DNA of 57,599 nt from Saprospiraceae bacterium (GTDB taxonomy: Bacteria > Bacteroidota > Bacteroidia > Chitinophagales > Saprospiraceae). The position numbers and the translations under genes are program-made. The notes below the pieces were generated by a model, which had not been told where the DNA came from, did no database searches, and saw nothing but the letters and a program-made list of their open reading frames with translations. How positions within the stretch are numbered: the stretch's first letter is position 1; the number at the start of each line of letters is the position of its first letter. This document shows, in pieces, positions 6,088 to 12,145 of this stretch. The stretch is taken from positions 2,501 to 60,099 of the forward strand of contig WFXH01000095.1 of NCBI GenBank assembly GCA_015490715.1, in the 5' to 3' direction.

Positions 6088-7395
6088 TTAATGCGAATGC
6101 TCGAGTTCGCCCGATTTTTCGACGACTTTTAGGAAGAAACTCCCACTCAAGACTACGTACATCGAGTCGTCGAGGGGTTCGAAAAACGAGACGATGGCTT
6201 CTCCTCCGGGTTTTTCATTGAGAAGGCGGATGGGTTCGGGTATGAAATGGTACATCCCGTTCTTGCGTTTGCCATCGGTCAAGTAGACGAACCACTGCTC
6301 ATCTTTTCGCACGATAGCATCTTCAGGCAAGGCATCGGCCGTTTGGTCATCGAGGATGATGCGCGCCGAGACGGTAGCGCGCGTAAAGATGGCAGGCCGC
6401 TCGCCCGTCAGATGCCCGTGTACGCGTACGGTTCTTCGGTGTCTGTCGGAGCCCTTGGAAATGAGTTCCACTTCGGCGGTGTAGTACTCGTCGGGCTCGG
6501 TCGTCAGCGAATAGATGATTTTCTGTCCCTTCTTCACTAAATGGATTTGACTTTCGGGCACATCGAGTTCGAGGTGTACATGCGGATCCGATATGGTCTC
6601 GAGCAGCACATCACCCTGTTGGACCGGCATTCCTTCCGAGAGGTGGCTTGTGATGACTTCTGCGTGTTTTTCCGAGCGTATGGGCACCGAATAGCGAATA
6701 TTCGACTCCTGGATTGTCTGCCCGTCGATACCGAGGTATTGGAGCTTTTTCTGCACGGATTGGAGCGCCGAGCGCGTACTGGCGAGTTCCATCTCGGTAC
6801 GTTGGAGCTCGCGCAACATGCCCCGATCGGTCTTGTAAAGGGCCTGCAGTCGCTGGAGTTCTTTTTCCAAAAAGTCGATGCGCGCGCGGTATTCCAGGTA
6901 TTGGCCCTGCCACTCGGCTATTTGCGGATTTTTGATGTAGGCGATGACCTGTCCCCTGCGGATCGTACTTCCTGGGATGTGCTTGCCCACTTTGAAGAGA
7001 ATGCCGTCGATGGGTGCGCTGATGAGATAGCGCGATTCTGGAGGCAAGTCGAGTACACCGGTTACATCGACCGATCGCCCCACGGGCTGACGCGACGGCT
7101 TGCCCCAGCGGATACCTCCGCTGCGCACCTGCTCTTCGGTGAGCTGTATGACCTCATTTTCACCGTGCTGATGACCGTGTACGTGATCACCGTTGGCTTC
7201 GTGATCGTGATCATGGTCTCCGTTGTGATCATGATCGCCATTGTGGTCGTGGTCGTGCTGCTCGTGCATGGGCTTTTCCTCATCACCACTGGAGGGTTGA
7301 TCACAGCCCAACAACAAGGTGCCTCCTATGAGGAGCACACTCCACAGTACTGTAGCTGAGAAGATTGCATGCATAGTTTTCATATTCAAAGTCAT
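6088..7395 (-). CDS. His-rich RND efflux periplasmic adaptor (CusB/CzcB type)
   Basis: Membrane fusion protein linking an inner-membrane RND pump to an outer-membrane channel. A signal sequence ends in the lipobox LLGC, so it is probably a lipoprotein. It is followed by a low-complexity metal-binding tract of repeated HDHNGD units (roughly residues 42-77), then the barrel/lipoyl region (SAPIDGILFKVGKHIPGS), a coiled-coil hairpin (QYLEYRARIDFLEKELQRL) and a second lipoyl/barrel half (GMPVQQGDVLLETISDP). The His-rich tract suggests Zn, Co, Cd or Cu binding. The gene begins 9 bases after the pump gene, forming an operon. The start may be 7395 or the internal ATG at 7383, which gives a tidier signal peptide. 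Confidence 0.9.
   Translation of the reverse strand: MTLNMKTMHAIFSATVLWSVLLIGGTLLLGCDQPSSGDEEKPMHEQHDHDHNGDHDHNGDHDHDHEANGDHVHGHQHGENEVIQLTEEQVRSGGIRWGKPSRQPVGRSVDVTGVLDLPPESRYLISAPIDGILFKVGKHIPGSTIRRGQVIAYIKNPQIAEWQGQYLEYRARIDFLEKELQRLQALYKTDRGMLRELQRTEMELASTRSALQSVQKKLQYLGIDGQTIQESNIRYSVPIRSEKHAEVITSHLSEGMPVQQGDVLLETISDPHVHLELDVPESQIHLVKKGQKIIYSLTTEPDEYYTAEVELISKGSDRHRRTVRVHGHLTGERPAIFTRATVSARIILDDQTADALPEDAIVRKDEQWFVYLTDGKRKNGMYHFIPEPIRLLNEKPGGEAIVSFFEPLDDSMYVVLSGSFFLKVVEKSGELEHSH
6240..6248 (+). repeat. Dispersed motif GTATRAAAT
   Basis: Extended form GTATGAAATGGTA, antisense to the metal-efflux adaptor, read there as His-Phe-Ile. Confidence 0.8.
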
Positions 7396-7404
7396 TTTAT
7401 GAAA

Positions 7405-10400
7405 TTATGGATTAAAGTCGCGATAAAATGCTGCCACTTTTTGATTGTACTGCAGTACGGTATCGAAGTAGTGCATTTTCGCCTGGAGGTATTCGGAGCG
7501 CATTTGATACAACTGTTGGTAATCGATGATCCCTTTTTCGTACTGGTCTTCTGCTTCGCGTGTCCAGGAGCGCAGTTTGTCGAACACCCACTCTTCCTCG
7601 CGCTGCATGGCTTGTTGGAGCTGTTCGATTTCGTTTTGGTACTGTTGTTTGAGGTTTTCCGCATCGGTCATGAGCATATGGATTTGCCAGTCCAGGGCCT
7701 TGCGCTCGGCGCTGAGTTGGCGTATGCGCGAGCGAAAGGTCGTGTTAAAGATGGGAGCGCTAATGCCAAACCCCGCCGTGCCAAACCAGCCGAGCTCTCG
7801 CAAGTATTCCGCCCCATATTGCAAGCGCACATCGGGCAGACGCTGACTTTTGGCCAGTTGGATTTCGGCATCGGCAATCTTAGATTGCGCTTGTACGAGC
7901 TGCACGCGATAGGCGGTTTGCGGAACTTGTATCGGCGGAGGTAGGACATACAATTGTGTATCGACGGTCGCCTGGGGCTGCCCGGTCAGCTGACGTAACT
8001 CGTACTCGAGCGAGTGGATATTGGCCTGTCCGGCCTGGATTTGATTGACGAGAGTGACGCGTTTGAGCTCCAGTGCATTAAGGGCGATGTGCGACAATGC
8101 CCCTTGCGTTACAGCAGTCCGCGCAATATTGAGCACTTCATCGGTATAGGCAAGCCAGCGTTGACGCTCGGCCTGCTTGAGCACTTCATTTTGAAGTCGA
8201 AAGTATACGTCTCGCACGCGATACTCGAGTTGGGCAAGGCGCATACCCTTCTCTACTTGGAGTGCTTCACCCCGTGCATTCCATAGCCCTTTGATTGCTT
8301 TGGTCTTCGAAGGTACGGGAATCTGCTGTTGTACCGCGTATTGCCACCGTCGCTCCGGGCTATCTCTCCACAATCCTTCACCATCGGCAAAGACCTCCGT
8401 ATTGCCCAGCGAAATGCGAATATCGCGAAACGCCTCTGCACCTTGGATACGTGCATCGTAGTAGTGCCCAAGGGGATAGTGCTCCTTAGTGTATTGAATG
8501 GCCTCTTCCAGAGTCAGTATTTGCTGAGCACGAGCTGGTGCGGAAATCCCGACGAGCGACACCACTGCGATCCACAATACATTGAAGCGCTGGAAGTACC
8601 GCAGCCAGCGCCTTTGCAAGCCGCGCTCGATGTAGTAGTAGAGTACAGGCAAGACAAAAAGCGTCAGTATAGTCGCTGTGATCAACCCGCCGATGACAAC
8701 TGTAGCCAGCGGTCGTTGTACTTCCGCCCCTTGTGAAGTAGAAAGTGCCATCGGAAGAAAGCCCAGCGACGCTACAGACATGGTAATGAGTACGGGGCGG
8801 AGACGCTCGTGTGTACCGCGGTAAATGATGGTCATCAGATCGCTCACGCCTTCCCTCTTCAAGCGATCAAATGCACCGATCAACACAATGCCATTGAGCA
8901 CCGCCACACCAAATAGCGCAATAAAGCCTATGCCCGCCGAGATACTAAAGGGCATATCCCGCAAGGTAAGGGACCAAATACCGCCTATGGCTGCCAAGGG
9001 AATGACAAAGAAGATTAAAATCGACTTAATAATGGAGTGAAAAGTAAAATACAACATCACCAGTATGAGTAACAGGGCTAAGGGCACGACTAAGGCAAGG
9101 CGATTGCGCGCTCGTATGAAGTTTTCGTACTGACCTCCAAAGCTGACGGAATAACCTTCGGGCAGGGGCAAGTAACGGTCAAACTGCGCGCGAATGTCGT
9201 CGACCACCGATTTGATATCCCTACCCGCCGTATTGACGCCGATCACTGTGCGGCGCATACCATCGGAGCGGCTCACTTGCATCGGTCCTTCCGAAATTTT
9301 GACATTCGCTACGTCGCGCAATTGAATATACGAACCATCCGGCTTTTTAATCCACAAATCTTTCAACTGATCCAGGCGACTCTGGTAAAGCGAGTCAAAG
9401 CGCACCACAAGGTCAAAGAAGCGCTCTCCTTCGTAAAACACTCCAGCAGGAATACCCGATACGACGGCCTGTACGGTCTTGTTGACATCATCGGCGCGCA
9501 ATCCATGTAGGGCAAGGGCTTGACGGTCGACGCGTACTACGATCTGCGGCAAGCCCACCGTCTGCTCTTCTACTACAGAGCCCACGCCTTCAATGCCCTG
9601 AATGAGCTGTTTTGCGCGTTGAGCCAGCTTGTTGAGTGTCTGGAAGTCTTCTCCGCGAATGAAGATCGAAATCTCGGCCCTCGACCCGCTCATCATCTCA
9701 TTGAAGCGCAGCTGGACGGGCTGGCTAAACTCTAAGCTGATGTTCTTTATGTTGCGGTGGATGAGTGCTTCGATTTTTTCGAAAAGTTCAATGCGATCTT
9801 CGGCATAGGTCCACTCTTTCTTCGGCTTCATTATGACGACGTAATCCGCAATTTCGACCGGCATGGGGTCCGTGGGGATTTCCGCCGTGCCGATGTTGGC
9901 CACGACTTTCACCACATCTGGAACGCTATCCAGGAGAAGTTTTTGGATCTTCATGGACACCTCCAGAGATTTTTGCAGAGATGTCCCCGGTGGCAATATA
10001 TGTTGAATGGCGATATCCCCTTCTTCAAGCGTGGGGATAAACTCGCCGCCCATGCGCTGAAAGCGCACGAACGAGATGATGCCCAGACCTATGATGACTG
10101 CTAAAAAAGCCAGCTTGTACCGCATCACCCAGCGCAATGCTCTGTCATAATGGCGGTGCAACACTTCCATGACGCGATCGGCAAAGCTCCATTCCGTGCC
10201 CTTGGTATTGCGCAACAGTGCTGCACTCATCGCCGGCACATAGGTCAACGAAAGCACAAGGGCCCCGAAGATGGCAAACATAATGGTCGAGGCCATGGGC
10301 TTAAACATGCGGCCCTCAATGCCTACCAAGGCCAATATCGGCAGGTACACCATCAAGATGATGAGCTCGCCAAAGGCGGCGCTCTTTCGAATGCGCACAG

Positions 10401-11715
10401 CTGCCTCGTAAATATCTTCTTCCACATCGGTCGTCACCCGTGGAGCGAGATAGCGCTGATGCAAGCGCGTCACGATCGCCTCTGTCACAATCACAGCCCC
10501 ATCGACGATGATTCCAAAGTCGATTGCACCGAGACTCATTAGATTGGCCGATACTCCCGTCAAATACATCATCGTCACCGCAAACAACATCGAAAGCGGT
10601 ATGACCGAAGCCACGATGAGACCAGCGCGGAGATTGCCCAAAAACAATATGAGCACGAAGATGACGATGAGACCCCCCTCGATGAGGTTTTTGCGCACCG
10701 TCTTAATCGTTTGATCAATGAGTTTTTCGCGATTCAAATAGGGCACCACCTGGACGCCGGCTGGCAAAATCTTGTTGATTTCCTGGACGCGCTCATGGAC
10801 ACGACGCGCTGTGGCATAGGAGTTTTCGCCGATCAGCATCTGAACGCGCCCTCCGACGACCTCTTCGCCATTCTTCGTGACGCCCCCATAACGCGGGGCA
10901 TGCGAAAGGCGCACCTGAGCTACATCCTTGACACGGATCGGCGTGCCTTCCACATTGGCCAACACCGTATTCTCAATGTCCTCAAGGTCTTTATAGAGTC
11001 CTTCAGTGCGGATGTAAAACGCGTTGCTAAACTTTTCGATGTAGGCGCTCCCTATGTTGGCGTTGCTTTGCTCAATGGCTTCTAAGATTTCATACAGACT
11101 CAAATTGTAGTTCTTCATCTTAATGGGGTCGACGGCGATCTCGTATTGCTTGAGGTACCCACCCATGGTGTTGACCTCTACCACTCCTTCGATCCCAGAG
11201 AGATGGCGCCGGACCACCCAGTCTTGTAGGGTGCGAAGATCCATCAAACTATAACGATCCTTGACCGAATCGGCAACTTCAAGAGTGTAGAGATACACCT
11301 CCCCCAGACCAAGCGACATCGGCGCAAGGCGTGGCACACCGAGCCCTTCGGGTATCATCTCCTTGGCCTCTACCAGCTGCTGCGATACCAATTGGCGCGC
11401 CAGATACTTGTCGACGTGATCCGGAAAGACTACCGATATCACCGAAAGGCCAAAACGCGATATGGAGCGTATCTCTTTGATGTTTGGAAGATTGCGCAAC
11501 GACCACTCCAGCGGTACCGTGATGTAGCGCTCCACATCGACGGTAGCAGTACCTGGGCTCAGGGTATACACCTGAACGATGTTGTCCGTAATATCCGGCA
11601 AGGCATCCAGCGGTATGCGCAACAAAGAGTACACCCCGCCCACAGCCATCAAAAAGGTCAACACAAATATGACCGCCCGATTGTATATCGAAAAGCGAAT
11701 GATGCGATCAATCAT
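7405..11715 (-). CDS. CusA/CzcA heavy-metal RND pump fused to TolC-type outer membrane channel
   Basis: A 1436-residue protein. Residues 1 to about 1040 form a complete HME-type RND proton/metal antiporter: first transmembrane helix IYNRAVIFVLTFLM, proton-relay region DFGIIVDGAVIVTEAI, and paired periplasmic domains. The DFGIIVDG sequence resembles the Co/Zn/Cd (CzcA) subgroup. A basic stretch and hydrophobic helix follow (FNVLWIAVVSLVGIS), ending in ARA-QQ with the Ala at residue 1063, which looks like a signal peptidase I site. Residues 1064-1436 are a TolC-like outer-membrane factor (LTLEEAIQYTKEH, long coiled coils). Pumps alone are about 1030-1050 residues, so this is a genuine in-frame fusion of two parts of the efflux complex. 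No frameshift is seen. It lies upstream of its adaptor. Confidence 0.93.
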   Translation of the reverse strand: MIDRIIRFSIYNRAVIFVLTFLMAVGGVYSLLRIPLDALPDITDNIVQVYTLSPGTATVDVERYITVPLEWSLRNLPNIKEIRSISRFGLSVISVVFPDHVDKYLARQLVSQQLVEAKEMIPEGLGVPRLAPMSLGLGEVYLYTLEVADSVKDRYSLMDLRTLQDWVVRRHLSGIEGVVEVNTMGGYLKQYEIAVDPIKMKNYNLSLYEILEAIEQSNANIGSAYIEKFSNAFYIRTEGLYKDLEDIENTVLANVEGTPIRVKDVAQVRLSHAPRYGGVTKNGEEVVGGRVQMLIGENSYATARRVHERVQEINKILPAGVQVVPYLNREKLIDQTIKTVRKNLIEGGLIVIFVLILFLGNLRAGLIVASVIPLSMLFAVTMMYLTGVSANLMSLGAIDFGIIVDGAVIVTEAIVTRLHQRYLAPRVTTDVEEDIYEAAVRIRKSAAFGELIILMVYLPILALVGIEGRMFKPMASTIMFAIFGALVLSLTYVPAMSAALLRNTKGTEWSFADRVMEVLHRHYDRALRWVMRYKLAFLAVIIGLGIISFVRFQRMGGEFIPTLEEGDIAIQHILPPGTSLQKSLEVSMKIQKLLLDSVPDVVKVVANIGTAEIPTDPMPVEIADYVVIMKPKKEWTYAEDRIELFEKIEALIHRNIKNISLEFSQPVQLRFNEMMSGSRAEISIFIRGEDFQTLNKLAQRAKQLIQGIEGVGSVVEEQTVGLPQIVVRVDRQALALHGLRADDVNKTVQAVVSGIPAGVFYEGERFFDLVVRFDSLYQSRLDQLKDLWIKKPDGSYIQLRDVANVKISEGPMQVSRSDGMRRTVIGVNTAGRDIKSVVDDIRAQFDRYLPLPEGYSVSFGGQYENFIRARNRLALVVPLALLLILVMLYFTFHSIIKSILIFFVIPLAAIGGIWSLTLRDMPFSISAGIGFIALFGVAVLNGIVLIGAFDRLKREGVSDLMTIIYRGTHERLRPVLITMSVASLGFLPMALSTSQGAEVQRPLATVVIGGLITATILTLFVLPVLYYYIERGLQRRWLRYFQRFNVLWIAVVSLVGISAPARAQQILTLEEAIQYTKEHYPLGHYYDARIQGAEAFRDIRISLGNTEVFADGEGLWRDSPERRWQYAVQQQIPVPSKTKAIKGLWNARGEALQVEKGMRLAQLEYRVRDVYFRLQNEVLKQAERQRWLAYTDEVLNIARTAVTQGALSHIALNALELKRVTLVNQIQAGQANIHSLEYELRQLTGQPQATVDTQLYVLPPPIQVPQTAYRVQLVQAQSKIADAEIQLAKSQRLPDVRLQYGAEYLRELGWFGTAGFGISAPIFNTTFRSRIRQLSAERKALDWQIHMLMTDAENLKQQYQNEIEQLQQAMQREEEWVFDKLRSWTREAEDQYEKGIIDYQQLYQMRSEYLQAKMHYFDTVLQYNQKVAAFYRDFNP
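11087..11095 (-). repeat. Dispersed motif GTATRAAAT
   Basis: GTATGAAATCTTA on the coding strand of the RND pump, read as Tyr-Glu-Ile. Confidence 0.75.
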
Positions 11716-11818: not shown

Positions 11819-12145
11819 TTATGCTCGCTCCGGCGGGCGCCAGATGTTGACTGCTATATCCTTTCCGTATAAAAGGCTGTCTTCATAGTAAATCCCCTCT
11901 CCACGGTGAGAGGTCAAAGGCAAATCCTCCTCACTGTCTTGCTCGACGACCACATAGGTGTGACACCCCACACAAATGCACATCCCACAGTGGTGTGCTG
12001 TATTTTTCTGGTCTGAAGAGTCAGGCTGCTCGTGCTGGCAATGGGCTACATAGAGATGGCTGTCCTCATCGACATGCATTCTGTCCCAGGTGATGATCAT
12101 CACCGACAAGATCCACAACGCTATCCACCAATACGCCCCTTTCAT
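11819..12145 (-). CDS. Small Cys/His-rich secreted protein of metal-efflux locus (DUF6660-like)
   Basis: A 108-residue protein starting MKGAYWWIALWILSVMIITW, a single signal or anchor helix. The middle has many potential metal ligands (HCQHEQPDSS, HHCGMCICVGCHTYVV), and the C-terminus reads NIWRPPERA. Small proteins of this build, with a cysteine cluster and a terminal IWxPP motif, are often encoded just upstream of cusA/czcA genes in Bacteroidota (DUF6660). I infer a periplasmic metal-binding or sensing role in the same efflux operon; the pump gene starts 103 bases downstream. The frame also allows a start at 12184, but the later ATG gives a clean signal sequence. Confidence 0.7.
   Translation of the reverse strand: MKGAYWWIALWILSVMIITWDRMHVDEDSHLYVAHCQHEQPDSSDQKNTAHHCGMCICVGCHTYVVVEQDSEEDLPLTSHRGEGIYYEDSLLYGKDIAVNIWRPPERA

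Follow-up and report, generated by a model that had tools for sequence, protein, structure and literature searches.

In a stretch of 57,599 nucleotides from a Saprospiraceae bacterium (the whole stretch is called 'the window' below; it is part of contig 95 in a draft genome of 2.45 Mb), a single open reading frame (ORF) on the reverse strand, at 7405..11715, encodes a metal efflux pump of the RND type fused to a TolC-type channel. We propose, on the basis of sequence comparison and with a probability of about 0.86, that the product is a polyprotein, which signal peptidase I would cut at an internal signal peptide into the pump and a free outer-membrane channel. A preliminary description of this DNA had offered such a release beside an uncleaved tether, and the comparison of homologues strongly favours release.

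Pump, channel and the stretch between them

The ORF starts with ATG and runs uninterrupted over 1436 residues. Its pump part, of the CusA/CzcA type (residues 1 to 1031, 8623..11715), matched the Pfam family ACR_tran over residues 5 to 1029 (891.5 bits) and belongs to the NCBIfam family TIGR00914 (CusA/CzcA), with 1084.8 bits for a curated cut-off of 701.45. Towards the other end, the Pfam domain OEP was found over residues 1271 to 1432 (43.4 bits, for a cut-off of 22). Pump and channel had been described as one chain, which agrees with an ORF free of internal stops and with the Pfam and NCBIfam matches. An assembly artefact or a missed stop was ruled out, since the frame is intact in a second genome of the genus (L007, where the fused frame is 97% identical) and in single-contig genomes (among them G059 and G129). 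A Saprospiraceae metagenome bin also holds a 97% relative of the fused protein (L065).

The part designated here as the mature channel comprises residues 1064 to 1436 (7405..8526). An AlphaFold2 model of residues 1030 to 1436 had a mean predicted local distance difference test (pLDDT) score of 91.7. The signal stretch was modelled as a helix at lower confidence (block means 61 to 78), and the first helix of the channel started at residue 1069, five residues past the predicted cut; the model thus suggests that the mature chain begins about where the first TolC-type helix begins. Foldseek searches with the channel model retrieved OprN, TolC, CusC and SilC at E values of about 1e-14 to 1e-16. A single-sequence search with the window channel matched no solved structure up to E 10, and a profile of the channel family found SilC (1.1e-18) and CusC (3.6e-14) among 28 sequences. 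By its OEP domain and its predicted TolC fold, the channel part is a TolC-type outer membrane factor, and it would be expected to sit in the outer membrane.

Between the two parts, the preliminary description had noticed a stretch resembling a signal peptide, with ARA/QQ at residue 1063 (the slash marks the predicted cut), and it was found at that place. The junction reads ERGLQRRWLRYFQRFN-VLWIAVVSLVGI-SAPARA/QQILTLEEA. Along it, a basic stretch (R1035 to R1043) is followed by a hydrophobic core (V1046 to I1057) and then by A1061-R-A1063/Q1064-Q1065. The n-region would correspond to residues 1031 to 1045 (RGLQRRWLRYFQRFN, 8581..8625), with a net charge of +4; the h-region to residues 1046 to 1057 (VLWIAVVSLVGI, 8545..8580), within a run of 16 residues without charge or N, Q or H; and the c-region to residues 1058 to 1063 (SAPARA, 8527..8544). 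The predicted cut, between A1063 and Q1064, falls between bases 8527 and 8526. The window sequence therefore presents a basic n-region, a hydrophobic core and small residues at positions -3 and -1, as signal peptidase I substrates do.

It also carries Gln at position +1 (Q1064), behind Ala at -3 and -1. In Bacteroidetes, Gln is found right after the signal peptidase I site in, on average, 71% of substrates (the 'Q-rule', PMC5837995), and Gln exposed by cleavage gets cyclised (PMC10653852). What the preliminary description did not mention is that, in this phylum, Gln at +1 marks the substrates of signal peptidase I (PMC5837995). The rule was followed by five of the eight window proteins with a likely signal peptide, as judged by eye and with lipoproteins excluded. 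The genome of this organism encodes signal peptidase I.

Conservation of the junction and exchange with split genes

Homologous junctions were collected from 166 loci, including 58 analysed stretches hand-picked from match tables (38 fused-looking and 20 split-looking). These loci yielded 111 fused chains, of which 106 were distinct at the junction. Full-length chains had either about 375 to 475 further residues beyond the pump, or at most 47. For L019 and L046, 214 and 210 residues were counted, as the pump match ran into the channel, and these two were set by motif. A site was scored as small-x-small/Gln, any such site 9 to 25 residues past the start of the core being accepted.

Such a site was found near the core in 100 of the 106 distinct junctions, 94 of them with Ala at -1. 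Under the same rule, it occurred in 50 of 1166 hydrophobic segments elsewhere in these pumps, in 761 of 5300 windows placed at random in the channel parts and in 32% of shuffles of the junction residues; its presence at the junction is more than chance. With a site finder that ignored residue +1, Gln was at +1 in 89 of 106 junctions, and Ala at -1 in 101. After thinning by pump identity, the Gln site remained in 13 of 14 sequences (below 60% identity) and in 37 of 41 (below 70%). The n-region had a net positive charge in 102 of 106 junctions (median +3). The A/Q step was also present in each of three named plasmid junctions outside the 106 (Haliscomenobacter, Phocaeicola and Runella). In the fused homologues L121, L144, L145 and L146, the pump is separated from the internal signal by a long additional linker, and the junction still ends in a step to Gln.

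The preliminary description had suggested that an alignment in which the linker is not conserved would speak against the proposed site. Among 12 Gln-bearing sequences less than 60% alike, column identity was indeed only 0.02 to 0.32 over the junction, but it reached 0.83 at -1 (and 1.00 at +1, by the choice of Gln-bearing rows). The letters are thus poorly conserved, while the signal-peptide features and the A/Q step are kept. This is what is expected of a working signal peptide, so that a non-conserved linker is misleading as a refutation. When 84 channel parts and their junctions were aligned with MAFFT, without regard to Gln, A1063 and Q1064 were two of only nine invariant or nearly invariant columns among 476.

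Further evidence came from relatives in which pump and channel are encoded separately. A channel ORF immediately following the pump on the same strand was identified in 16 of 23 split loci from Bacteroidota, and 15 of these 16 split channels have a signal ending in small-x-small/Q (Met at -3 being also allowed). Fused and split forms can be close: the split L155 and the fused L029 are 89% identical in the pump and 79% in the channel. A FastTree phylogeny was built from 143 pump parts, 106 fused and 37 split. It needs 13 changes between the fused and split states, at least 11 of which are forced by starred branches, and the 13 changes persist when Planctomycetota are left out of the count. Such repeated replacement makes most sense if a free channel arises from the fused form as well. 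This exchange between fused and split genes supports, if only indirectly, the production of two separate proteins from one ORF.

The organism itself carries a second metal efflux operon, of the split kind, on contig 3 (L167, 1911-8316), with an RND protein of 1238 residues. Its channel, of 413 residues, starts three bases after the pump stop and has a signal ending in SLWA/QQEP; the adaptor combines a heavy-metal-binding domain with a Cys-rich tail made up of GKCG repeats.

Proposed processing and alternatives

With the topology taken from known RND pumps, the pump part would insert in the inner membrane, leaving its C-terminus on the cytoplasmic side. There the basic segment would remain, and the next hydrophobic segment would restart Sec translocation as an internal signal peptide, to be cut between A1063 and Q1064 by signal peptidase I on the periplasmic side. 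The freed channel, its N-terminal Gln probably cyclised, would move on to the outer membrane; the signal helix left by the cut (the h-region) is predicted to remain attached to the pump, giving it a 13th membrane helix. The two proteins would thereby be made at a ratio of 1:1 and, with the separately encoded adaptor, would form a divalent-metal efflux pump.

Several observations weigh against this proposal. Shuffles of the same junction residues gave the motif in 6707 of 21200 cases (32%), because small residues and Gln are abundant there. Four of the 106 junctions (L112, L116, L137 and L139) lack a Gln site, although L112, L137 and L139 retain A-x-A; in L121 and L132, Gln is found only at a non-standard site. 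In the window itself, the finder that ignores +1 chose APA/R, two residues before ARA/QQ. The 106 sequences are related and were mostly hand-chosen from match tables, so that the counts overstate independence and yield no prevalence. Branches of the pump tree carry only local supports, and the program issued a warning about long branches and uneven composition. For 7 of the 23 split loci, the analysed stretch revealed no channel ORF. The plant-type family of glutaminyl cyclases was not found in the organism's genome; there were eight matches to Peptidase_M28, which may include cyclases of the animal type, as against aminopeptidases.

The length of the signal also has to be considered here. The hydrophobic core had a median of 16 residues in internal signals, compared to 13 in split signals and 19 in pump segments (by one measure). 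The distance from the last charge to the site had a median of 19 residues in internal signals (n = 100), compared to 16 in split ones (n = 15), a difference that also counts against the proposal and that held after thinning to 37 fused sequences; the split signals available for the length comparison numbered 15 to 16, some from one family. It is suggestive that the internal signals are longer than the split ones and slightly more like a membrane helix, and their length may suit a helix retained by the pump.

This slightly longer hydrophobic stretch, together with the low-confidence helix in the AlphaFold2 model, would suit an ordinary 13th transmembrane helix, the channel then working while attached to the pump. 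We regard such a tether as unlikely. It predicts neither the conservation of A/Q in a stretch that otherwise varies freely, nor the exchange with split genes on at least 11 occasions. In a docked pump, moreover, the first TolC-type helix starts at a mid-periplasmic position, far from the inner membrane, and with this geometry the approximately five residues between the cut and the first channel helix are too few to bridge from there to the docked channel. The channel could also be translated separately, with an ordinary N-terminal signal, from an internal start in the linker, which would make the full-length chain a by-product. In-frame ATG codons do occur in 36 of 106 linkers, some after purine-rich stretches (L029, L059 and L060), and the window linker has in-frame alternative start codons and no ATG. 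Yet 70 of the 106 linkers are without ATG, 43 of them having only GTG or TTG (the window included) and 27 having none of the three, and internal starts can therefore not be general. Met is not enriched either, a background of 2.65% over a mean of 21.5 codons predicting about 0.57 per linker, and the full-length chain would carry the signal even so. An internal start as the source of the channel thus appears quite unlikely, though re-initiation may add to its supply in some lineages. Cleavage by another protease, either signal peptidase II or a periplasmic one, is very improbable: Cys at +1 was seen in 1 of 106 junctions (L112, whose AEA/C in place of A/Q can be read as a weak lipobox), and 100 of 106 match the signal peptidase I pattern with Gln. 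From its junction, the L112 channel may possibly have turned into a lipoprotein.

Beyond cleavage by signal peptidase I as such, one may speculate that the single precursor lets pump and channel assemble in cis at 1:1. The internal signal would have been tuned longer to stay as a functional 13th helix, and a short-lived uncut chain would be an assembly intermediate, each pump trimer bringing its own channel trimer. We consider this extension doubtful.

Gene context, metal specificity and distribution

Nine bases past the stop of the fused gene lies the gene of a periplasmic adaptor (6088..7395, reverse strand), HlyD/CzcB-like by profile matches, and an adaptor gene occupies the same downstream position in Haliscomenobacter, Runella and Spirosoma. 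The N-terminus of the window adaptor has a probable lipoprotein signal (LLLGC), then a long His/Asp-rich repeat, the composition of which suggests binding of divalent metal. Upstream of the fused gene, a small ORF rich in Cys and His, the N-terminal part of which includes a hydrophobic stretch (11819-12145, reverse strand), matched no Pfam family at E 0.5; on the Spirosoma linguale plasmid pSLIN01, an ORF in a similar place matches DUF6660. The product of this small ORF is possibly a metal-binding partner.

Among solved structures, the closest relatives of the pump were ZneA (649.9 bits), then CusA (532.6 bits). The copper methionine triad of CusA consists of M573, M623 and M672 (PMC11213822). 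These correspond in the window pump to Q571, I622 and E673; a Cu(I) pump is therefore unlikely, and a copper pump of the CusA kind was rejected. CusA residues E567, D617 and R669 are kept as E565, D616 and R670, while E625 is replaced by D and K678 by R. Judging from these residues, the pump likely exports divalent cations.

The preliminary description had called the arrangement unusual. This does not hold within Bacteroidota, where many genomes and plasmid records match; a rare oddity was thus ruled out. At the class level, a match at E <= 1e-200 was found in 90 of 149 genomes, and at the phylum level, a match at E <= 1e-150 in at least 214 of 296. Among the matches listed, most open frames had 1430 to 1530 residues, shorter and split ones being also present. 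In public records, the fused product appears only under the names 'CusA/CzcA family heavy metal efflux RND transporter' and 'heavy metal efflux pump, CzcA family'.

On plasmids, 27 of 3557 matching records cover at least 80% of the query. Among the matches listed, the plasmid records that reach this coverage (H1-H27, with H41 at a rounded 80%) carry genus names of Bacteroidota. Fused forms outside Bacteroidota were not found among the plasmid matches listed and seven further genomes; in these seven (five Planctomycetota and two of the Prevotella type), none of 37 matches extends past query residue 1036. The sole non-Bacteroidota record to run past the pump end, among the matches listed, was that of Cupriavidus campinensis (H40, NZ_CP043441.1), where the match reaches residue 1123 in two pieces. 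Fused genes on Bacteroidota plasmids were seen near metal P-type ATPases at L175, L177 and L178, and the Runella plasmid pRUNSL02 was typed as conjugative.

Relation to known systems and significance

The whole pump part is like the CusA/CzcA pumps (TIGR00914; ZneA and CusA), but unlike them it has a TolC-type channel fused at its C-terminus. The channel shares its domain and predicted fold with the TolC/CusC/OprM outer-membrane factors (PF02321), and differs from them in having no gene of its own and in a signal peptide placed inside another protein. The lipid-anchor stretch of CusC seems to be absent from it, as the family profile aligns only from CusC residue 46. Q-rule substrates have small-x-Ala/Gln at the end of their signal peptide, as here; the present signal differs in being internal, after the membrane helices of a pump. 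The main texts of two Q-rule papers contain no mention of RND or TolC, and the first also none of efflux.

The Bradyrhizobium cytochrome b/c1 polyprotein FbcH joins an inner-membrane protein with several membrane passes to an exported one, and signal peptidase parts the two at an internal signal. The present case differs from FbcH in that the partner's destination would be the outer membrane, and in the alternation of fused and split forms within one phylum. Among the open-access papers listed by literature searches, no account of signal-peptidase processing in RND-channel fusions was found. The fusion is known in annotation, and the shared internal signal peptidase site was not found described among those papers.

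If the proposal is true, many Bacteroidota records labelled 'CusA/CzcA transporter' are precursors of two proteins that reside in two membranes, and this annotation hides a channel. The fusion would be a widespread bacterial case in which the general signal peptidase processes a polyprotein encoded by the cell, and would explain how equal numbers of pump and channel can be kept. The natural pair of a fused and a split form described above would be suited to testing whether linkage matters for assembly. More generally, the Q-rule could reveal hidden internal cleavage sites.

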